Under the pieces are notes generated by a model. That model worked only from the letters and a program-made list of their open reading frames with translations, did not search any database and was not told where the DNA came from. From Vibrio pacinii DSM 19139 (GTDB taxonomy: Bacteria > Pseudomonadota > Gammaproteobacteria > Enterobacterales > Vibrionaceae): 64,000 nt of DNA. The translations under genes and the position numbers were made by a program. The DNA lies in contig NZ_KL543978.1 in assembly GCF_000711795.1 (NCBI RefSeq), positions 149,826-213,825 on the forward strand, given 5' to 3'. Positions 15,843 through 26,808 of the stretch are shown here, in pieces; positions within the stretch are counted from its first letter, which is position 1, and every line of letters begins with the position of its first letter.

Positions 15843-15870
15843 AAGGGAAGCCGATTGGCTTCCCTTTTTT
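15843..15870. terminator. Bidirectional intrinsic terminator
   Basis: AAGGGAAGCC (15843-15852) pairs perfectly with GGCTTCCCTT (15857-15866) around GATT, followed by TTTT. It lies between the converging DUF445 and Lrp-type genes and touches the end of the latter. Confidence 0.92.
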
Positions 15871-16345
15871 ATAACTTGGCGATCAAATCGGCGTTAACGC
15901 CAAAACTCGTTTTATGCTCTTCAATCACCACTTCACTTCGCGTTTGGATAACGCCGGGTAAGGTGCCGAGCTTAGTCGACATAAAGCTTTGATAAGCTTT
16001 CATGTCTTTAACACGCACCTTGATCATGGTATCGAAGTCGCCAGATAAGGAATAACACGCTTCGATCTCGGGCATATCGGCAACCGCTTGAGCGAATTTT
16101 TCAAAAATAGAGAAGCTAGTTTGATCGAGGCGAATATGGATAAAAACCTGTACATCTAGGCCGAGCTTTTCTGGGTTCAATTCGGCATGATAACCACAAA
16201 TATACCCTTCTTTCTCTAGCCGTTTGACCCGGTCTGAACAAGGCGAGGTGGTCAAGTTAACCTGTTTGGCCAACTCGACAATCGGCAGGCGGCCTTTTAG
16301 ATTGAGTGCGCGCAGAATTTCTTTATCAATTCTATCTAGGTTCAT
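15869..16345 (-). CDS. Lrp/AsnC-family transcriptional regulator
   Basis: 158 residues. An N-terminal winged helix (DRIDKEILRALNLKGRLPIV, then TTSPCSDRVKRLEKEGYICG) is followed by a RAM ligand-binding domain (about 65-150) with the family's YSLSGDFDTMIKVRVKDM and LPGVIQTRSEVVIEE. Such regulators usually bind amino acids and assemble as octamers. It is similar in layout to Lrp and BkdR-like proteins but is not Lrp itself. Its targets cannot be told; the put genes 0.5 kb further along are a possibility but already have their own AraC regulator. Confidence 0.92.
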   Translation of the reverse strand: MNLDRIDKEILRALNLKGRLPIVELAKQVNLTTSPCSDRVKRLEKEGYICGYHAELNPEKLGLDVQVFIHIRLDQTSFSIFEKFAQAVADMPEIEACYSLSGDFDTMIKVRVKDMKAYQSFMSTKLGTLPGVIQTRSEVVIEEHKTSFGVNADLIAKL

Positions 16346-16845: not shown

Positions 16846-18333
16846 CTAGTCAAGTTCGACTAAATGCTTCTTAAACGTCGCATGTTGCGATTTTACGCTC
16901 TGCTCAGGTTCACCTGTTGCCAAGCTGACAATCACGATAGCGGCAATCGAGAAAATGATTCCTGGAACAATCTCATAGACATCGAACCATCCACCAGACA
17001 GCTGTTTCCAAACAACGATTGTGATACCACCAACGAGGATACCCGCGAGAGCGCCGTTACGGTTCATACGCTCCCAGTACAGGCTCAGAATTAGAGCAGG
17101 ACCAAAGGCTGCACCAAAACCTGCCCAAGCGTAAGAAACCAGACCAAGGACTGAGCTGTCTGGAGTCATCGCAAGCACAAGCGCCACAATTGAAATGCCA
17201 ATCACTGCGATACGGCCAACCATCACAATCTCTTCCGAAGACGCGTCTTGTTTAAACACTTGCTTATAAAAGTCTTCCGCCAAAGCTGAAGATGAAACCA
17301 ATAGCTGTGAGTCAGCAGTACTCATTACTGCCGCAAGAATCGCAGCTAATAGAATACCCGCAATCACTGGGTGGAAGAGTGCATTAACCAGAAGCATGAA
17401 TATCTTCTCACCATCGTCAATGCCAAGACCTGTATTGGTTACATACACCAAACCAACCAAACCAACTAACATAGCGCCAACCATCGACAGTGCCGTCCAA
17501 ATTACCGCAATGCGACGAGCCGTGATGAGGTCTTTGTTCGAACGAGAAGCTTGGAAACGTGCCAGGATATGCGGCTGTCCAAAGTAGCCCAAACCCCATG
17601 CTGCCAGTGAAATGATCGCGATTGCCGATAAAGGCTCGCCTTTTGAATCGTTCCATAGCGTCAGTAGTTGTGGGTTGATGTTCGCCAAGTCGCTATTTAA
17701 CTGACCAAAGCCACCTTCTAGCGCAACAATAGGCACAATAAGCAGTGCTGCCGACATCAACAAACCTTGAACTAGGTCAGTCCAAGAGACCGCAAGGAAG
17801 CCACCAAACATGGTATAAGAAACAACACATACCGTCCCGATAATCACTGCGGTGGTGTAATCCAAGCCGAATACGGTTTCAAATAGTTTACCACCTGCAA
17901 CTAAACCTGAACTGGTATAGAAAAGGAAGAACAACAGAATGAAGAATGCCGAAATTACCTGAATCATTTTAGACGTGTCATTAAAGCGACGTGATAAGAA
18001 CTCAGGTAAGGTTAGTGCGTCTGTGGTAATACTGTAAGTACGTAAACGTTTTGCGCTTACAAGCCAGTTAAGCCATGTACCTATCAGCAAACCACCCGCA
18101 AGCCAGAATGCTTCGACACCCGCAGCATACGCGTAACCAGGTAAGCCAAGCAGTAGCCAGCCACTCATGTCTGAAGCGCCCGCTGAAAGTGCCGCAGGCC
18201 ATGGTCCTAGTGTACGGCCGCCCAGGAAATAATCGCTTGAGCTTTTCGTTCGTTGATATGCATACACGCCTATTGCTAGCATCATCAAAAGATACGCAAT
18301 AAACGTTGTCGTAATAGCAAAGCTATTTTCCAT
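16846..18333 (-). CDS. putP: Sodium/proline symporter
   Basis: Inner-membrane uptake of proline with Na+, feeding PutA. The 495 residues, with about thirteen membrane segments, match the solute:sodium symporter family and PutP in length. Signatures include TFIAYLLMMLAIGVYAYQRT at the start, SDYFLGGRTLGPWPAALSAG with ASDMSGWLL, and the central GLGYFGQPHILARFQA. The ATG follows a good ribosome site (GAGAGGAC). It is the last gene of the minus-strand put operon, 71 bases after the PutA C-terminal domain gene, and is ended by a strong terminator. Confidence 0.96.
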   Translation of the reverse strand: MENSFAITTTFIAYLLMMLAIGVYAYQRTKSSSDYFLGGRTLGPWPAALSAGASDMSGWLLLGLPGYAYAAGVEAFWLAGGLLIGTWLNWLVSAKRLRTYSITTDALTLPEFLSRRFNDTSKMIQVISAFFILLFFLFYTSSGLVAGGKLFETVFGLDYTTAVIIGTVCVVSYTMFGGFLAVSWTDLVQGLLMSAALLIVPIVALEGGFGQLNSDLANINPQLLTLWNDSKGEPLSAIAIISLAAWGLGYFGQPHILARFQASRSNKDLITARRIAVIWTALSMVGAMLVGLVGLVYVTNTGLGIDDGEKIFMLLVNALFHPVIAGILLAAILAAVMSTADSQLLVSSSALAEDFYKQVFKQDASSEEIVMVGRIAVIGISIVALVLAMTPDSSVLGLVSYAWAGFGAAFGPALILSLYWERMNRNGALAGILVGGITIVVWKQLSGGWFDVYEIVPGIIFSIAAIVIVSLATGEPEQSVKSQHATFKKHLVELD

Positions 18334-18370: not shown

Positions 18371-18409
18371 TGCCCTCTGAATTCGAGGGCAAACTAACGA
18401 AGAGTTAGT
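18371..18409 (-). other. Paired hairpins between the PutA-CTD gene and putP
   Basis: TGCCCTC (18371-18377) pairs with GAGGGCA (18385-18391), and ACTAAC (18393-18398) with GTTAGT (18404-18409), the latter reaching into the stop codon. No T-run follows on the minus strand. Probably an intercistronic mRNA structure rather than a terminator. Confidence 0.4.
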
Positions 18410-19103
18410 GGGTTTCACTACCAAGTTCAAGCAAGGTCGCGTTACCGCCCACCGCTGTTATATTTATTGTTCGGGTACGCTCTGTAATAAAACGGAGCGC
18501 TAAGTGTGGATCGTGTGCAACAGGAATGTTCACCAGATCCGTTTCAGACGTTAGGCTTACAATGGCGCCAGAACGCTGTGCAAGTAAGCGGTTGATTGTT
18601 TTTTCAACCTCATTACTACCCACGTAACCAAGACTGCGTACATCCGAATCGAGCAATTGATGGTAAGCATCAAGCGCAACAAATTGTACTAAGTGAGTAG
18701 GTAATGAAGACTGCACATAAGCAGACTCTAAAGCTTGGCTAAGCTCATCGTCATCACTGCATAAGATAACGGTGTTGCCCGCGATTAACGCCGCCGTTAA
18801 CTGCGCGACTACGGCATGCTTAGCCTGCTGTTGTAATGCATCCTGAATGACAACAGCGACACCGCGACCTGCGGTGTAAAGTTCGTTGGTTTCACCCGTT
18901 GGACCAACCAATTGATGAGTCTCAGCGAGTAACGCTGACGCTTGCTCAATATGGTAAGAAACAACGGCAGCCAACTCAGGCTCTACTTGTTGTAAAGCCT
19001 GTTTAAAAGCAAGCAAACACTCACTTTTTGAATCAAAATCGGTCAGATTCCAGTTTTCCCAAGCTGAAAAAGCATCAGAAAAACGAGTGACTTGATGAAC
19101 CAT
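18405..19103 (-). CDS. Free-standing PutA C-terminal (ALDH-fold) domain
   Basis: 232 residues, usually labelled as a pyrroline-carboxylate dehydrogenase, but it lacks the dehydrogenase Glu and Cys and is half a domain long. It reads like the C-terminal domain of long PutA proteins: LVGPTGETNELYTAGRG, an LTAALIAGNTVILCSDDDE Rossmann-like segment, and the end ERTRTINITAVGGNATLLEL. That end closely resembles the C-terminus of E. coli PutA as I remember it. In long PutAs this domain packs on the P5C dehydrogenase active site and helps close the substrate tunnel. The adjacent PutA stops exactly where this domain would begin, so I infer a split PutA whose tail acts in trans. It lies 22 bases after putA. 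Confidence 0.8.
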   Translation of the reverse strand: MVHQVTRFSDAFSAWENWNLTDFDSKSECLLAFKQALQQVEPELAAVVSYHIEQASALLAETHQLVGPTGETNELYTAGRGVAVVIQDALQQQAKHAVVAQLTAALIAGNTVILCSDDDELSQALESAYVQSSLPTHLVQFVALDAYHQLLDSDVRSLGYVGSNEVEKTINRLLAQRSGAIVSLTSETDLVNIPVAHDPHLALRFITERTRTINITAVGGNATLLELGSETH

Positions 19104-19125
19104 AATTATTCCCCTCGCCTTTTAA

Positions 19126-22100
19126 TTAAGAAAACTGTGCTTGTGTAAATCGATACAGGTAGTGTGGACCACCCGCTTTCGGCCCCGTGCCTGACAGGCC
19201 TTGACCACCGAACGGTTGAACACCTACGACTGCACCAACTTGGTCGCGGTTGATGTAACAGTTACCTACACGAGCGTGTTTCTCTATCCAACGATAAGTC
19301 GTTTCGTTGCGACTATGGATACCCATGGTTAGACCAAATCCAGTATTGTTAATTTGTTCAACCACCTGTGTTAACTCATTGGCCTTAAAGCGAACAATAT
19401 GTAAGATCGGACCAAACTGCTCTTCTTTGAGACATGAAATATCAGCAATTTCAAATGCCGTTGGAGGCACGAAATCGCCATGAGCATGCTCATCCGTCAA
19501 CGCCAGTTGGGCAATTTTCTTCTCGCTACTACTCATGTGTTCAATGTGCGACATCAACTTAGATTTAGCCGTAGCGTCAATCACGGGACCAACATCAGTC
19601 GAATGCAAGTACGGTTTACCGACACTCAGCTCTTGCATCGCACCTTGAATCAGCGCCGTGATTCGATCCGCAATATCCGCTTGAACATAAAGCACTCGCA
19701 GCGCACTACAGCGTTGACCTGCAGAAGCAAATGCCGAACGAATCACATCACGTACAACTTGCTCTGGAAGTGCTGTACTGTCGACGATCATCGCGTTCTG
19801 ACCGCCCGTTTCAGCGATGAATGGAACCGGAGCCGCGTCGCGAGCGGCAAGAGTTTGGTTGATACGTTGAGCGGTTGCTGTCGAGCCAGTAAACGCCACG
19901 CCCGCAATCGCAGGATGAGACGTAAGTGCTGATCCAATTTCTGCACCACGACCCGTTACCAATTGAATAGTACCTGCAGGGAAGCCGGCATCTATCATCA
20001 GTTCAACAGCACGAGCCGCGATAAGGCTGGTTTGCTCGGCAGGCTTAGCCACTACGGTATTGCCTGCCACCAACGCAGCGGTGACTTGACCTAAGAAGAT
20101 AGCCAACGGGAAGTTCCACGGACTAATACAGACAAACACACCGCGACCTTGGCGAGTCATCGACCGGCTTTGGCCATCGAACCCCTTGAGCGACAATTCA
20201 CCTAGGGCATCGACCTGCTTAGCGTAGTAACTACAAAAATCAACCGCTTCACGCACTTCATCAATACCATCATGGATGGTTTTGCCCGCTTCTTGATGAC
20301 ACAGCGCCACCAGCTCTGCTAAATGCTCTTCTAACAGGTCAGCTAATGCTTCAAGTTTTTCACCACGTTGCGCTTTCGGCGTCGCCTGCCAGCTTGGGAA
20401 TGCTTGCTGCGCACCCTCAATCGCAGCGGAAACATGATCAAGTGATGCAAAAGCAATCTTACCCACTTCGATACGTCGGTCGTATGGTGCAGTGACGACT
20501 TCAGTATTAAGATTTTCCTTGATCATGCTTTCAGCGAGTAATTTATTGTTGATTACCGGACCACCAATCCATTGCTTACTAAGAAAACTCTCAACTTCAT
20601 GCTCGAACGGCTTAGCTTCACTTTCGATATCGATGTTGACGCCAGCAGAGTTTTTACGCTCTGGGAAAATATCCATTGGCAGTGGGATACTGGTGTTATT
20701 AAAGCTATCGAACGCCAACAGCATATCAACCGGGTGCTGAGTTAAACTGTCGATAGGACAGCGCGCATCGACCAAACGGTGAACAAATGAGCTGTTCGCG
20801 CCATTTTCAAGCAAACGGCGAACCAGATACGGCAGCAAATCTTTATGGCTACCAACCGGGGCGTAAATGCGAACAGATTGTTGATATGCGCTCATGGCGT
20901 GGTTATATAGCGAGTCGCCCATGCCATGCAGACGCTGAAATTCAAAGTCTTTATGTGTTGCCATGACCGCGATTGAGGTCACCGTCTGCGCGTTATGACT
21001 GGCAAACTGCGGGAAAATATTACCGCGAACGTGGTCACTCAATAGGAAACGCGCGCAGGCTAGATAAGCCACGTCGGTCGCTTCTTTACGAGTATAGACA
21101 GGATAATTAGCGTAGCCCGCTTGCTGAGACCATTTGATTTCGCTGTCCCAGTACGCCCCTTTCACCAAGCGAAGTGGGATCAAATCACCCTGCTCTTTCG
21201 CTAGGCGGTTTAGCCAAACAAGAACTGGCAAAGCACGTTTAGAGTAGGCTTGAATAACCAGACCAAACTTGCCCCAGCCCTTAACTAATTCACTACGGTA
21301 AACTTTTTCAAATAACCTTAAAGAGAGCTCAAGACGGTCAGCTTCTTCGGCATCAATCGTAATCGCGACATCTAACTCAACGGCACGGCGTAGAAGTTGT
21401 TGTAACGTATCGTAGAGCTCGGTCAATACACGCGCTTCATTGGCCACTTCGTAGCGTGGGTGCAACGCAGATAACTTAATCGAAACCGAGGGCGCTGGAC
21501 TTTTGTCAAAAGCGTAGGTATCTCGACCCACCGCTTCGATCGCCATTAGATAATCTTTGAAATATTTATTTGCATCGGCCGTCGTTAACGCCGCTTCACC
21601 CAACATATCGTAAGAGTAAGTGAAGCCTTTATCGCGCATCGCTTTGCCATTTTTCTGCGCTTCTGTAATGCTGCGACCTAGGACAAACTGATGACCCATG
21701 ACTTTCATTGCCTGATGCATCGCCTTACGAATCACAGGTTCTGACATCTTGTTAACTAAGCGGTTAACGGCACTGACTGGGCTTTGTGCTTCATTTTCAG
21801 ACAGGCCAACCACCTTCCCAGTCAGCATTAATCCCCAAGTTGAGGCGTTAACGAATACTGAGTCTGAATTTTTCAGGTGAGATTTCCAATCAGCCACAGT
21901 GAGTTTATCGCGAATCAACGCGTCAGCGGTGGCGGCATCAGGAATACGCATTAGCGCTTCAGCAAGACACATTAACAAGATACCTTCGTGGGTATCCAGA
22001 CTATATTCAAGCAGTAGCGCATCAATCATTTGAATTGACTTTTTATCGGCTCGAATCGCTTTAATCAGATCCGTTGTCTTGACTGTAATCTGTTCTTTTT

Positions 22101-22245
22101 CAGCATCGGTTGGCATTGCCAAAGGCAGCAATTGGTTTAGCCATTGTGATTCGTCCACCATGTATAGTGGCGAGATCAATGACCAAAGCTCATTAAGCGG
22201 TTGCTCAACGAACTCAGCATTCAACACATCAGTTGCTGTAAACAT
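19126..22245 (-). CDS. putA: Bifunctional proline dehydrogenase / P5C dehydrogenase
   Basis: Oxidises proline to glutamate in two steps, with FAD (proline dehydrogenase) and NAD+ (P5C dehydrogenase). Of 1039 residues, the N-terminal helical part and the PRODH barrel span about 1-500 (DAEEADRLELSLRLFEKVYR, RLVKGAYWDSEIKWSQ, SHNAQTV). The dehydrogenase spans about 520-1035, with Glu812 in ETGGQN and Cys846 in AGQRC, 34 residues apart as usual. It lacks the ribbon-helix-helix repressor domain of E. coli PutA and ends at GTGPKAGGPHYLYRF without the C-terminal domain, which is encoded by the next gene. Start ATG follows GAGGAAAA. Likely activated by the neighbouring AraC protein. Confidence 0.97.
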   Translation of the reverse strand: MFTATDVLNAEFVEQPLNELWSLISPLYMVDESQWLNQLLPLAMPTDAEKEQITVKTTDLIKAIRADKKSIQMIDALLLEYSLDTHEGILLMCLAEALMRIPDAATADALIRDKLTVADWKSHLKNSDSVFVNASTWGLMLTGKVVGLSENEAQSPVSAVNRLVNKMSEPVIRKAMHQAMKVMGHQFVLGRSITEAQKNGKAMRDKGFTYSYDMLGEAALTTADANKYFKDYLMAIEAVGRDTYAFDKSPAPSVSIKLSALHPRYEVANEARVLTELYDTLQQLLRRAVELDVAITIDAEEADRLELSLRLFEKVYRSELVKGWGKFGLVIQAYSKRALPVLVWLNRLAKEQGDLIPLRLVKGAYWDSEIKWSQQAGYANYPVYTRKEATDVAYLACARFLLSDHVRGNIFPQFASHNAQTVTSIAVMATHKDFEFQRLHGMGDSLYNHAMSAYQQSVRIYAPVGSHKDLLPYLVRRLLENGANSSFVHRLVDARCPIDSLTQHPVDMLLAFDSFNNTSIPLPMDIFPERKNSAGVNIDIESEAKPFEHEVESFLSKQWIGGPVINNKLLAESMIKENLNTEVVTAPYDRRIEVGKIAFASLDHVSAAIEGAQQAFPSWQATPKAQRGEKLEALADLLEEHLAELVALCHQEAGKTIHDGIDEVREAVDFCSYYAKQVDALGELSLKGFDGQSRSMTRQGRGVFVCISPWNFPLAIFLGQVTAALVAGNTVVAKPAEQTSLIAARAVELMIDAGFPAGTIQLVTGRGAEIGSALTSHPAIAGVAFTGSTATAQRINQTLAARDAAPVPFIAETGGQNAMIVDSTALPEQVVRDVIRSAFASAGQRCSALRVLYVQADIADRITALIQGAMQELSVGKPYLHSTDVGPVIDATAKSKLMSHIEHMSSSEKKIAQLALTDEHAHGDFVPPTAFEIADISCLKEEQFGPILHIVRFKANELTQVVEQINNTGFGLTMGIHSRNETTYRWIEKHARVGNCYINRDQVGAVVGVQPFGGQGLSGTGPKAGGPHYLYRFTQAQFS

Positions 22246-22432: not shown

Positions 22433-23248
22433 TTAACCGAATTGTTTCTTGTACTGAGAAGGTGACATACCTTGAAGGCGGGAAAAAGAGTGAGTAAAGG
22501 TGCTTTGACCAGAAAAACCGGTGAACTCCGCAACCTGACCAAGGGTAAGGTTGCCTTGCTCGATAAATTGCTTAGCCATATCAATTCGCTTACCAAGCAC
22601 ATACTGATGTGGCGTAATGCCCATCTGCTCTTTAAACACTGAATGGAATTGACTTTCACCAAGAAAGACGCTGCCTGCTAACTGGGTGACAGAAATTCTT
22701 TGAGTGAGATGTTGTTCAATGTAACGATCGATTGCTTCTAGATCGAAACGTGAGTCTTTACGCGACGTTTCAAATGCCGACATATGGCGCTGTAAAAGCG
22801 CCACAACCGTGTCATTGCAAGCTCGGCTGAGCAATAAGTCATCAGGGTTCGCTTGCATTTCTGCGACCAACATCTGGATTAATTTTTGGATTTGTCCATC
22901 CAGTTTAAAGTAGGTCTCTTTTTGGTTCAGCTCGTTGAGACGCTGTAGCAGCATTGCATCACCCTCTTTAGGCAAGGGCATGTTAAGCACCAAAATGTCA
23001 GATTGACCGACCACACCACCAAATGCGTGTCCCGTCCCCGACGTCACAACGCAACCTTGGCCTGGGCCAACCAAATTACCATAACCACTGACCTCAAATT
23101 CTGCTTGGCCTTTCAAGCCAATGACAACTTGGGTGTAATTATGATCATGACACTCCATGTAAGAAGGCAAAGTGATAATTTGGGCAGGTTTAGGCGACAA
23201 TTCTTTGGCAGTCGATGCTTCACTTGGCGGTTTATTTGCGCGAGACAT
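22433..23248 (-). CDS. putR: AraC-family regulator of put genes (PutR-like)
   Basis: 271 residues. The N-terminal half is a cupin-like sensor (about 28-100, YMECHDHNYTQVVIGLKGQ). The C-terminal half holds the two AraC helix-turn-helix motifs (ITQ-type first helix near QRISVTQLAGSVFLGESQF, then LTLGQVAEFTGFSGQSTFTH and the end GMSPSQYKKQF). Next to putA in Vibrio this gene is PutR, an activator of putAP in response to proline in V. vulnificus. It replaces the self-repression that E. coli PutA exerts with its own DNA-binding domain. Same strand as putA, 187 bases upstream. Confidence 0.85.
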   Translation of the reverse strand: MSRANKPPSEASTAKELSPKPAQIITLPSYMECHDHNYTQVVIGLKGQAEFEVSGYGNLVGPGQGCVVTSGTGHAFGGVVGQSDILVLNMPLPKEGDAMLLQRLNELNQKETYFKLDGQIQKLIQMLVAEMQANPDDLLLSRACNDTVVALLQRHMSAFETSRKDSRFDLEAIDRYIEQHLTQRISVTQLAGSVFLGESQFHSVFKEQMGITPHQYVLGKRIDMAKQFIEQGNLTLGQVAEFTGFSGQSTFTHSFSRLQGMSPSQYKKQFG

Positions 23249-23742
23249 AGCAGATCACGAAAAAAGTTAGCAGTGGGTTTCGGCATGGTATAACAAAAGT
23301 GACGTAACTCGAAATTACTATTAATCAATTATTAAATAGGTTGCACAGCTCGAATCAGGGTTATCGCTCAATATCACTTTGCGCTGGTTAAAAAAACGCC
23401 AATCAAAACACTGGAAGAATGATCAAGTGCACATAAATTACGGCTCATGTCACTTCTATCCGCTTTAGCCATTCTGGATCAAAAATCTTTACTTGCATAT
23501 TTCTTGAATGCGCCCAAAATGGAATATGTATTAGATAAGTTTATCTCTAATTATGATAAACTTAGGTAACACTCTCTTCGAGTAGAGTGATAGAAATGGA
23601 AGAAAGAGACCTTTGCAAGGCATCTGAACAATGGACTGTCAAAAGTTTGTCTTTTTCCTAATGTAAGTTGCATATATTGTAGATATGCACTGATTTGATT
23701 ATTTTACATTGGTTGTTTAAACGTTAATTGTTGCAGGGACTT
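23249..23742. other. 494-base divergent region with an inverted repeat
   Basis: Holds the promoters of putR (minus) and of the PEGA-protein gene (plus). The clearest structure is a perfect 10-base inverted repeat, TAAGTTTATC (23536-23545) and GATAAACTTA (23555-23564), about 180 bases before the plus-strand gene. A smaller one, CACTCT/AGAGTG, lies at 23570-23589. They look like operator sites; no T-run follows. No gene seen here. Confidence 0.45.
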
Positions 23743-24840
23743 ATGATCATACGTCGCATCGCAGCGCTTTTGCTTGCGCTAAGCCCTATTTGGGTTTCGA
23801 CTTCGATTTTTGCACAAGAAAGTCTACAGGCTGATCCTGTTGCTGAAATCGAAACTAAATTAGAAACTAAAGAAGCTGAATTGGGCACTATGGCTGCAGA
23901 GTTTGACTCTGAAGCTGAACGTCTCCAACAACTTCGAAACGAACAAGATAAGCTTGAGCGCCAAGAGCAAGAGCTCAACGCAAAGCGAAATCGAGCTAAG
24001 TCAGCTTTGGACAAACAATATAGCCGTCTTTTAGATGATCCAGAGATCGACTTAGTTTCTTTTCAAAAAGCTTATCAAGACGCTTGGACTGAAGTTAAGG
24101 ATAACCAGTCAGCGATTCTTGAAAACCAACAAGCCATCACTGAAAGTGAAATGCGATTGTCTCAGGTCAAACAAAAGCAAGCACGCCTAAACAGCGAACT
24201 TTCTTACCTGCAAGAGCAAAGAGTTGAGGCACGTGTAAAACGCTTAGCGGCTGAACTACGTGAAAGTGATGTATTGGAGACCAGCTACAAAACCACCTGT
24301 TCATCAACGATGACGATTGGCGAGTGTAAGAACCAAGGTCACTATTTAACCAAGCAAAAAGCGGTCAAAGCTTTCAAAGCTAAGTTGATGGATAGACTTA
24401 CTGAATCTAACATCGCGAAGCAGAATGCCAAAGACGTTCAGCTCAATGTACATGTTCAGGAAAACCAAGTGATCCGTTCTGGTTTCGAAGGCAGCAACGA
24501 CTATTACACAGAGATGCGTTCACAACTGCAGGCACGCCCTGAAGCGTCAGCAGCTTGTAAGCTGCTAAACGTGTCGTCTCGCTACTGTTTAAAAGGCGAA
24601 CAAACAGCAGACAACAAGAAGCAAGACAAAAACTGGGTCAACGTAACGGTACGTTCTGATCAGTTTGACGATGATGTCGTGATTAATGGTATTAACTACG
24701 GGAGTACTCCTGTTGAAGTTGTACTGCCTCGTGGTCAACACCAAGTCACGGTATCAAAAAACGGATTTGAAACTTATAACCGCGTGATCAGTGTCAATAG
24801 TAGTGACACGGTTTGGGTTAAGCTTCGTCCAAGTGGCTAA
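23743..24840 (+). CDS. Periplasmic coiled-coil / PEGA-domain protein
   Basis: 365 residues, function unknown. A signal peptide ends near residue 24 (STSIFAQE). A long charged coiled coil follows (about 30-175), containing SRLLDDPEIDLVSFQKAYQD. A conserved middle domain (about 180-290) has four cysteines (TTCSSTMTIGECKNQ; AACKLLNVSSRYCLK). The C-terminal PEGA domain spans about 295-365 (VVINGINYGSTPVEVVLPRG, VTVSKNGFETYNR). PEGA domains are cell-surface or periplasmic beta-sandwiches. The next gene is a paralogue with an extra C-terminal domain. I start at ATG 23743, preceded by CAGGGAC; a TTG 15 bases earlier is in frame but less likely because it would precede the signal peptide. Confidence 0.82.
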   Translation: MIIRRIAALLLALSPIWVSTSIFAQESLQADPVAEIETKLETKEAELGTMAAEFDSEAERLQQLRNEQDKLERQEQELNAKRNRAKSALDKQYSRLLDDPEIDLVSFQKAYQDAWTEVKDNQSAILENQQAITESEMRLSQVKQKQARLNSELSYLQEQRVEARVKRLAAELRESDVLETSYKTTCSSTMTIGECKNQGHYLTKQKAVKAFKAKLMDRLTESNIAKQNAKDVQLNVHVQENQVIRSGFEGSNDYYTEMRSQLQARPEASAACKLLNVSSRYCLKGEQTADNKKQDKNWVNVTVRSDQFDDDVVINGINYGSTPVEVVLPRGQHQVTVSKNGFETYNRVISVNSSDTVWVKLRPSG

Positions 24841-24981: not shown

Positions 24982-26808
24982 ATGCGTCCAGGTTTATCCG
25001 CCCTTTTGTTAGCATTATTGCCATGCTTAGTTTCGTCTCCAGCCCTCGCTGAAGATGGGCAAGCGTCATTAGTTCAAATTGATGACCAATTGTTCACCAA
25101 ACATGACGAACTCAGCACAGCGCGACAAACAAAAGACGAGCAGCAAGCACTGCTAGATAAAAAACAAGCTGAACTTAACTCTCTCGATCAACAAGCGAAA
25201 GCATTAGAGAAAGCTTTCACTGACGCAAAGCAAAAGCTCGAGTCTGATTATCAACGTATGATTGACGACCCGAGTGTCGACTTGGTGGCCTCTCAACAAG
25301 CTTATCAAGACGCCTGGTCAACGGTTAAACAAAATCAGAAAGCACGCCTAGCGGCAGAACAAGCCGTTGAAGAGCAACGTGCGTTGTTAGTCACACGCAA
25401 TGCTGAAGTGGAAGCAATTGAAAAAACAATTGCCGGCCTTGGCGAAAGCAAAATTCGCGCACGAGTTGAACAACTTAACCATGAACTGCAACAGCCAAGT
25501 AATATCGCGGTCAGCTTTACCAACCGCTGTCAGCCATCAATGACATTAGCTCAATGCGACCAACAAACTCGCGAGCTAGCACTGCAAAAGGCGGTTAAAC
25601 AGTTTCGCAGTGAGATCCCAAACCAAACCAGCGAAAGTGCTTTGGTGAAACGTAATATCAACGATGCCACTCTCAATATTCACGTGTTAAGACATGCCAC
25701 CAAGCAGTCTGGTTTTTATGATGGTGTCCGCTACCGCATAGTTATGGATGTAGAGCTAGAAACAAGACCAAGCGAAACCGTGGCTTGTCAGTTGCTTCAG
25801 GTCGAAAATCAATACTGTTTCGCTCCCGGCGTTGATAGCAGCAAACAATTACCTGTCGATCAGGAAATTGCTTGGGTGACCTTCTCTTTACGTTCAAATC
25901 AATACAATGACAGTGTCTTTATTGATGGTGTCTCTTATGGCAGTACCCCTATCGAAGTGATGTTGCCAACGGGATCGCACAATGTCTTGATCAAAAAAGA
26001 AGGCTACCAATCGTTTAATCAGCAAATATCGATTAAATCTGACACTTCTTTACGCGCCGTATTAACAGAGAAAGCCAATCCATTACGCGATGGAACTAAG
26101 TTTGCCGATGGCATGGCCAACAAAGGTTCAGCGCCAGAAGTTGTCACTTTACTGCCTGGCAAGTTCTATGTGGGCGAAGAAGGCTCAAGGCAAGTCTACC
26201 TTGATCATGCTTTCGCGATTGGGGTTACTCCAGTGACCGTTAGCCAATTCGCGACCTTTGTAGAACACACTAGTTATCAAACGGATGCCGAGCTCAAAAA
26301 CACCTGTACCGCATTGGTTAACGCCGAAGTCACTCCTATTGCTAACAGCAGTTGGCGCGACCCAGGCTTTAAGCAATATCCAAATTCTCCAGTGGTGTGT
26401 ATTAGCCAAAATGACGCTAGCTCATACACCAATTGGCTGCGCCAACAAACTGGAGCATCTTATCGTTTACCCACTGAAGATGAATGGGAAATCGCCGCAC
26501 GTGCTGGTAGCCAAGATAAGTATTGGTGGGGTGATGAATTTAAACCAGGTCAAGCTAATACCGGTTGGAGTGGCACACCTTGGTCAAATATAAGTACCGC
26601 TCCGGTCAGCGCTTTCAAACCAAACCAATTAGGTGTTTATGATAGTGTTGGCAACGTGTGGCAGTGGACCAGTAGTCCGCGTGGCATCGTTAAGGGAGGC
26701 GCTTGGAATTTTTCGCCGAATATGGCGGCGGCAGATAAGCAATTATTCCTCTCTCCATCAGAAGCCACCAACTATGTTGGCTTTCGTATCGTACGCGATA
26801 TCAATTAA
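24982..26808 (+). CDS. Periplasmic coiled-coil / PEGA / FGE-like (SUMF1-type) protein
   Basis: 608 residues. A signal peptide ends near 23 (SSPALAED). A coiled coil (about 30-175) includes QRMIDDPSVDLVASQQAYQD, the same signature as in the preceding gene. The four-cysteine middle domain and a PEGA domain (VFIDGVSYGSTPIEVMLPTG) follow, then a formylglycine-generating-enzyme-like domain (about 385-608): SYRLPTEDEWEIAARAGSQ, GVYDSVGNVWQWTSS, KGGAWNF, NYVGFRIVRD. The two catalytic cysteines of true FGE, normally just after the GGxW motif, are missing, so sulfatase activation is unlikely. It is a paralogue of the upstream gene with an added domain. Confidence 0.85.
   Translation: MRPGLSALLLALLPCLVSSPALAEDGQASLVQIDDQLFTKHDELSTARQTKDEQQALLDKKQAELNSLDQQAKALEKAFTDAKQKLESDYQRMIDDPSVDLVASQQAYQDAWSTVKQNQKARLAAEQAVEEQRALLVTRNAEVEAIEKTIAGLGESKIRARVEQLNHELQQPSNIAVSFTNRCQPSMTLAQCDQQTRELALQKAVKQFRSEIPNQTSESALVKRNINDATLNIHVLRHATKQSGFYDGVRYRIVMDVELETRPSETVACQLLQVENQYCFAPGVDSSKQLPVDQEIAWVTFSLRSNQYNDSVFIDGVSYGSTPIEVMLPTGSHNVLIKKEGYQSFNQQISIKSDTSLRAVLTEKANPLRDGTKFADGMANKGSAPEVVTLLPGKFYVGEEGSRQVYLDHAFAIGVTPVTVSQFATFVEHTSYQTDAELKNTCTALVNAEVTPIANSSWRDPGFKQYPNSPVVCISQNDASSYTNWLRQQTGASYRLPTEDEWEIAARAGSQDKYWWGDEFKPGQANTGWSGTPWSNISTAPVSAFKPNQLGVYDSVGNVWQWTSSPRGIVKGGAWNFSPNMAAADKQLFLSPSEATNYVGFRIVRDIN

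Follow-up and report, generated by a model that had tools for sequence, protein, structure and literature searches.

In the Vibrio pacinii DSM 19139 genome, a 64,000-nucleotide stretch (contig NZ_KL543978.1, positions 149,826 to 213,825, hereafter the window) carries a putA gene followed at once by a small gene for a protein of 232 residues, which our analysis suggests is a non-catalytic subunit of PutA. We would put at a little under four in five the probability that this small protein docks on PutA through two segments, a flap and a C-terminal lid, covers the tunnel for Δ1-pyrroline-5-carboxylate/glutamate semialdehyde (P5C/GSA), and braces the aldehyde site. It would be a half-protomer resembling P5C dehydrogenase (P5CDH), attached to the P5CDH module of PutA by its GPTGExN flap and its lid peptide, and would take the place filled by the second protomer in type A PutAs or by the fused C-terminal domain in long (type B/C) PutAs. 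Docking, tunnel covering and the need for such a subunit are all argued by analogy with solved PutAs, and a lid working in trans, the role proposed by a first-pass annotation of this DNA, is to us the most likely reading of the small protein. The C-terminal domain of long PutAs closes off the tunnel through contacts that imitate the quaternary ones of other PutAs. In BjPutA the cover comes from the partner protomer, whose oligomerization domain lies over the tunnel (PMC5786444). SmPutA, thought to work as a monomer, has its own C terminus as a lid across part of the tunnel (PMC12398946), and in RcPutA the C-terminal domain is reported to have a share in both aldehyde dehydrogenase activity and channelling (PMC5293562).

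The small protein is a relative of P5CDH and PutA, namely a PutA-type domain of the aldehyde dehydrogenase (ALDH) superfamily that carries the lid and lacks the catalytic domain. Pfam reports an ALDH fragment (2.9e-6), and NCBIfam reports a 1042-residue PutA model (7e-22, 77 bits, over the model's P5CDH region) and the E. coli-type 1318-residue PutA model (2e-16, 59 bits, over the model's C-terminal end). When a profile built from 62 rows was run against the PDB, all nine distinct sequences at E<=1e-3 were PutAs and not unrelated ALDHs. The profile matched BjPutA, a type A enzyme, in two segments on either side of the catalytic domain, which it passed over (608-769 and 967-998; E 1.7e-27), and residues 59-228 of the small protein were collinear with 1080-1235 of SmPutA, up to the end of that chain (E 5.8e-9). 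The claim that the small protein holds a PutA-type C-terminal segment with its lid is therefore upheld, with matches far above chance; the more specific likeness to the E. coli-type C-terminal domain is present as well, but the best match is the P5CDH domain and tail of the short type A PutAs, ahead of the C-terminal domain of the E. coli type or of SmPutA. The predicted fold (predicted local distance difference test, pLDDT, 82.8; predicted template modelling score, pTM, 0.82) has as its top match the P5CDH of BjPutA (PDB 4q73; Z 21.5, root-mean-square deviation, rmsd, 2.9 over 205 residues); other ALDHs, from Z 21.0 downwards, are level with it, and SmPutA comes at Z about 20. Profile and fold matches together make this protein one half of an ALDH: N-terminal helices, flap, Rossmann domain, last segment and lid.

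What is absent is equally consistent across relatives. Among 105 small proteins (101 distinct), a pattern search, which scores a diverged motif as missing, found none with the GQRC motif of the catalytic Cys, none with PWN and none with K[PA][AS][ED], the pattern of the NAD lysine, the last two being NAD/oxyanion motifs. The first-pass statement that both the dehydrogenase Glu and Cys are lacking thus stands for the Cys and falls for the Glu, since 60 of 62 Vibrionales rows retain the general-base residue (E187), and its pattern is present in 20 of 25 proteins of a wider set. PutA, for its part, has both GQRC and AETGG, so that its own P5CDH motifs are intact, and it stops where the P5CDH domain ends, as first described, with the C terminus ...GTGPKAGGPHYLYRF followed by TQAQFS, six residues beyond GGPHYLYRF. 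The small gene is indeed the next one, 22 bp on, in another frame and after a GAGGGG stretch.

The two segments proposed to bind are divided almost completely between PutA and its partner. The flap pattern GPTGExN occurs in the core of 15/17 type A PutAs and in none of the split PutAs (0/25, and 0/78 at the named loci defined below) or fused, long ones (0/16); on the partner side it is present in 23/25 small proteins, in 80/80 named ones, and in 16/16 fused C-terminal domains. Likewise, the lid motif sits on the tail of 16/17 type A chains and on no split PutA (0/25; named, 0/78), and it is found in 24/25 small proteins, 79/80 named ones and 16/16 fused domains. The exceptions among small proteins (L numbers are our handles for loci, G numbers for genomes and f numbers for families) are L113 and L115, without the flap pattern, L115 also without the lid pattern, and L099, whose end departs from the lid motif. 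These counts, and the core tree discussed below, leave aside two long PutAs whose P5CDH end was not located (L133, L134), a broken putA (L030) and the short loci L001-L011. Within the small protein, nine of the ten flap residues are invariant in 62 rows and the tenth nearly so, and the lid region (residues 198-228) has a mean identity of 0.97. Residues 61-80 and 198-232, which make up 55 of the 232 residues and were delimited around the type A motifs with the invariant residues already known, hold 30 of the 36 residues invariant in 62 Vibrionales sequences. Residues 64-68 and 209-232 are the only parts with pLDDT <50 in an otherwise confident model, as would be expected of parts ordered only on a partner. 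At the level of sequence, this conservation is that of a scaffold presenting two putative binding segments.

The distribution of the small gene follows that of this PutA. In the genus, 114 of 118 sampled genomes carry the two together and the remaining four carry neither; in one of the 114 (G632, a poor assembly of 1370 contigs) both genes are fragmentary. Two genomes of the genus (G607, G616) gave two PutA and two small-gene matches each, and the pair seems to duplicate jointly. In a sample of the order (197 genomes) a separate small open reading frame (ORF) occurs in at least 49, from five families, alongside others with long or type A PutAs; in the class sample it was found in 0 of 228 other genomes at E<=1e-25, and in the phylum sample (120 genomes) one separate small gene lay outside the order (G508, L132). 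Among the named loci, which are the best 80 of 344 and all Vibrionales, 78 have a PutA ORF of >900 residues with the small ORF adjoining; of the remaining two, one is a contig of 4.6 kb and one has a broken putA. Of the named loci compared, that of Vibrio salilacus (L057) comes closest, with the small protein 98% and PutA 99% identical. The order putA, small gene, putP is kept in 80 of 82 loci, that is, the named ones plus one of V. campbellii (L152) and one Salinivibrio record. The small gene is under purifying selection, with a ratio of nonsynonymous to synonymous substitution rates (dN/dS) of 0.03-0.12 in 15 of 16 locus pairs and of 0.24 in the remaining pair, at dS 0.03. Given this ratio and the 78 paired ORFs, the separate small gene is no sequencing accident. 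The gap between the two genes ranges from -134 to 24 bp, six overlaps resting on first-start ORF calls and being possibly shorter or absent, and all three frame relations occur among the 78 named loci (22, 17 and 39), so we reject a conserved read-through or frameshift that would join putA and the small gene.

Some loci depart from the common form. L091 (Vibrio mytili) and L030 (G010) have no full-length putA ORF and an open small gene; the putA of L030 lies in several frames, and sequencing error or decay are both possible. Two divergent putA/small-gene pairs, L115 (G060) and L114 (G099), belong to family f13 of the same order; a canonical pair (L116) is present in G060 as well. The P5CDH of L115 has neither the GQRC nor the ETGG pattern and the partner's lid is altered, which suggests that this copy may have lost dehydrogenase activity; in L114 the PutA tail, which includes ELLTLGS, resembles, by eye, a vestige of the type A lid.

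Several results weigh against the tunnel-lid role. In the divergent pairs L113 and L115 the flap or the lid is not matched by its pattern, and the flap pattern is absent from two type A PutAs (L149, L150). The low pLDDT of the tail may alternatively come from a shallow alignment. A single-chain model of PutA core plus small protein, built from L043 (where the small gene is in frame with putA) by reading the putA stop as Gly, did not resolve the complex (pLDDT 66, pTM 0.51), and its matches to SmPutA reach as far as residue 1169-1175, at an rmsd of about 15-17 A; its alignment was shallow because all rows were Vibrionales. The small protein also evolves faster than PutA, for which dN/dS is 0.02-0.04 in the 10 computable pairs. 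A third, looser NAD-loop pattern survives in 19/105 small proteins and goes unexplained, as does a conserved E187 in a protein without the catalytic-Cys domain, although a structural role for this residue is likely.

A different main function for the same subunit would be redox-dependent membrane association, that is, functional switching, and not tunnel closure. The membrane binding of RcPutA, which has a fused C-terminal domain, is enhanced by proline, and the authors implicate that domain in switching (PMC5293562). However, conservation in the small protein is highest at flap and lid, exactly the parts absent from the PutA core, and in solved PutAs it is the oligomerization domain or the C terminus that covers the tunnel; we therefore regard switching as the main role as unlikely. 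That the small protein is an active P5C dehydrogenase, as the printed V. campbellii annotation of PutC would have it, has next to no chance of being right, given the missing catalytic domain, the absence of all three motifs from every small protein searched and the intact P5CDH motifs of PutA itself.

This last reading has nevertheless entered the record. A 2013 paper (PMC3858670) lists a putBCP operon in V. campbellii and names PutC a P5C dehydrogenase; by position, as the gene between that of PutA and putP (compare L152), PutC would be the small gene. The Salinivibrio record labels its small gene "aldehyde dehydrogenase family protein". The first-pass warning that a P5C dehydrogenase label would be wrong was sound, as the sequence excludes a normal enzyme of this kind, and any dehydrogenase role appears very unlikely. 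In PutA, Pfam PF14850 (residues 73-187) bears the name "DNA-binding domain of Proline dehydrogenase" and is also found in PutAs without a match to the ribbon-helix-helix (RHH) domain (L123, L126), so that the name may mislead annotation.

The first-pass annotation had further described the pair as a split PutA, which, if taken to mean fission of a long PutA, our results do not support. In a 58-row tree of the PutA core (all trees were "quick" trees), 25 split PutAs lie on one side of a branch (Shimodaira-Hasegawa-like approximate likelihood ratio test, SH-aLRT, 99) and share a group (SH-aLRT 100) with six type A PutAs of their order; long PutAs of the order are set apart. In a 30-row core tree, a constraint that unites the split PutAs with long ones from the order is worse by 137 log units (approximately unbiased, AU, test, p 6e-6), and one that unites them with all long PutAs by 249 log units (p 2e-44), which indicates that the PutA half is not derived from a long PutA. 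It was also claimed that the RHH repressor domain is gone. The window's PutA has in fact no RHH match (PF21775, at E<=1; a long control, L125, matches at 4.3e-22), but a type A relative (L126) and a long PutA (L123) lack it too, and its loss in the split lineage is thus not implied.

The history of the small protein is less sharply drawn, and the choice lies mainly between a type A duplicate and a captured domain. The domain tree places small proteins nearer the fused C-terminal domains, in a region where long branches meet, and AU tests leave two placements unrejected, with fused domains of the order (p 0.77) and with their own P5CDH group (p 0.66). Before the first domain tree, the rows of L149, L115, L114, L019, L151, L137 and L135 and ten split P5CDH units were dropped, and before the AU tests all 12 rows of L125, L136, L112, L113, L132 and L018. 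The lid itself points toward type A, with a mean identity of the small-protein lid of 61.3% to the order's type A, 49.6% to other type A and 42.3% to fused domains. In addition, V or I precedes GGN in 24/25 small proteins and 6/6 of the order's type A, compared with 1/10 other type A and 0/16 fused domains. Our preferred history is a partial duplication in tandem in which the copy lost the catalytic domain. In its full form, which we hold tentatively and at somewhat less than even odds, the system would be an obligate two-subunit PutA in which a type A homodimer became a heteromer: the P5CDH end was copied in tandem, the copy shed its catalytic domain and came to serve as a dedicated tunnel-lid subunit, flap and lid disappeared from PutA, and the outcome converged on the fused domain of long PutAs independently of it.

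Capture, in which the C-terminal domain of a long PutA was transferred and recombined beside a type A putA that then lost flap and lid, seems to us somewhat less probable than this. It agrees with the side taken by the small proteins in the domain tree and with the presence of long and split PutAs within one family (f12: L119-L121 fused, L023 and L117 split), but the lid is nearer the order's type A than the fused domains, and a grouping of the small proteins with their own P5CDH is not rejected. Fission, with a stop and a new start freeing the C-terminal domain of a long PutA that still docks at the same place, is improbable overall and strongly disfavoured for the PutA core. The anatomy that the small protein shares with the long-PutA C-terminal domain, collinear with that of SmPutA, would fit fission, as would the domain tree, where the small proteins fall on the C-terminal-domain side and a grouping with the order's fused domains survives. 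The split cores, however, form a clade inside a type A group of full support with the long-PutA grouping rejected, and the V or I before GGN is common to small proteins and the order's type A and found in no fused domain. Fused C-terminal domains are themselves scattered in the core tree (L125, L136, L142-L145, L025-L027 and others), at least three label changes being forced, and the fused domain of L136 ends in an SPHYLYRF-type tail like that of a P5CDH end; fused domains may have more than one origin.

Table 1. Features of the proline utilization locus in the window
Feature	Position	Strand	Description
Lrp/AsnC-family regulator downstream of putP	15869..16345	-	Candidate PutR; PF01037 2.5e-23
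putP	16846..18333	-	Sodium/proline symporter, 495 aa; TIGR02121 3.6e-212; next gene of putative operon
Small gene	18405..19103	-	232 aa; P5CDH-like, without catalytic domain: N-terminal helices, flap, Rossmann domain, last segment, lid motif
C-terminal lid motif	18420..18497	-	LRFITERTRTINITAVGGNATLLELG, small-protein residues 203-228; conservation and pattern
Flap motif	18876..18905	-	GPTGETNELY, small-protein residues 67-76; conservation and pattern
putA/small gene spacer	19104..19125	-	22 bp; GAGGGG ribosome-binding-like stretch (by eye)
putA	19126..22245	-	1039 aa; proline dehydrogenase (PRODH) and P5CDH catalytic core; without RHH, C-terminal domain or C-terminal lid motif
Flap-equivalent site in PutA P5CDH	20158..20184	-	Residues 688-696, GFDGQSRSM; by alignment, GPTGExN of type A not recognisable
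AraC-family regulator upstream of putA	22433..23248	-	PF00165 9e-21; with putA in 73/82 loci

On the minus strand the genes run in the order AraC-type regulator, putA, small gene, putP and Lrp-type regulator (Table 1). Proline use in Vibrio is controlled by the Lrp-family activator PutR, according to PMC3223726, and the Lrp-type gene of the window fits such control; a gene of this family is seen in 50 of 82 loci, a set in which some sequences stop early. On the plus strand, two genes with PEGA domains (23728-24840, 2.9e-19; 24982-26808, 1e-17), the second also with a sulfatase-modifying-factor domain (5.4e-50), lie beside the AraC gene, and in Salinivibrio a SUMF1/EgtB/PvdO gene likewise adjoins the AraC gene.

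PutA is a model case of substrate channelling, and in the PutA forms of the papers cited here the tunnel cover is on the same chain or on an identical partner, whereas in these vibrios it would apparently be a separate subunit. In the open-licence literature searched, mostly by listing, we found no description of a separately encoded PutA C-terminal domain. With a separate lid, channelling with and without it could be compared by adding or omitting one protein, leaving the enzyme unmutated, and, if our reading is correct, such an arrangement could let the cell tune P5C leakage. The annotation of the small gene, labelled P5C dehydrogenase PutC in V. campbellii (by position) or aldehyde dehydrogenase family protein in Salinivibrio, is corrected in either case.

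With PutC of the V. campbellii putBCP operon (PMC3858670) the small gene shares its operon position, while the sequence of the small protein contradicts the enzyme name. With the P5CDH (GSA dehydrogenase, GSALDH) domain and tail of BjPutA (PDB 3haz, 4q73) the small protein shares the best sequence match and the top fold match, but it has no catalytic domain, no Cys and neither of the two NAD/oxyanion motifs, and it is a separate 232-residue protein and not part of a homodimer. The 1039-residue PutA resembles type A PutAs in its PRODH and P5CDH core, in having neither RHH nor C-terminal domain, and in its core phylogeny, and differs from them in that only the type A chain has its own flap and lid; with type B/C PutAs its core does not group. 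Finally, the small protein has in common with the C-terminal domain of SmPutA-like type B/C enzymes (PDB 5kf6) the flap, the Rossmann domain, the lid, the lack of a catalytic Cys and a partner P5CDH without flap; it differs in having a gene of its own, in that its PutA core stands outside the long-PutA lineage, and in that its sequence and lid are nearer type A.

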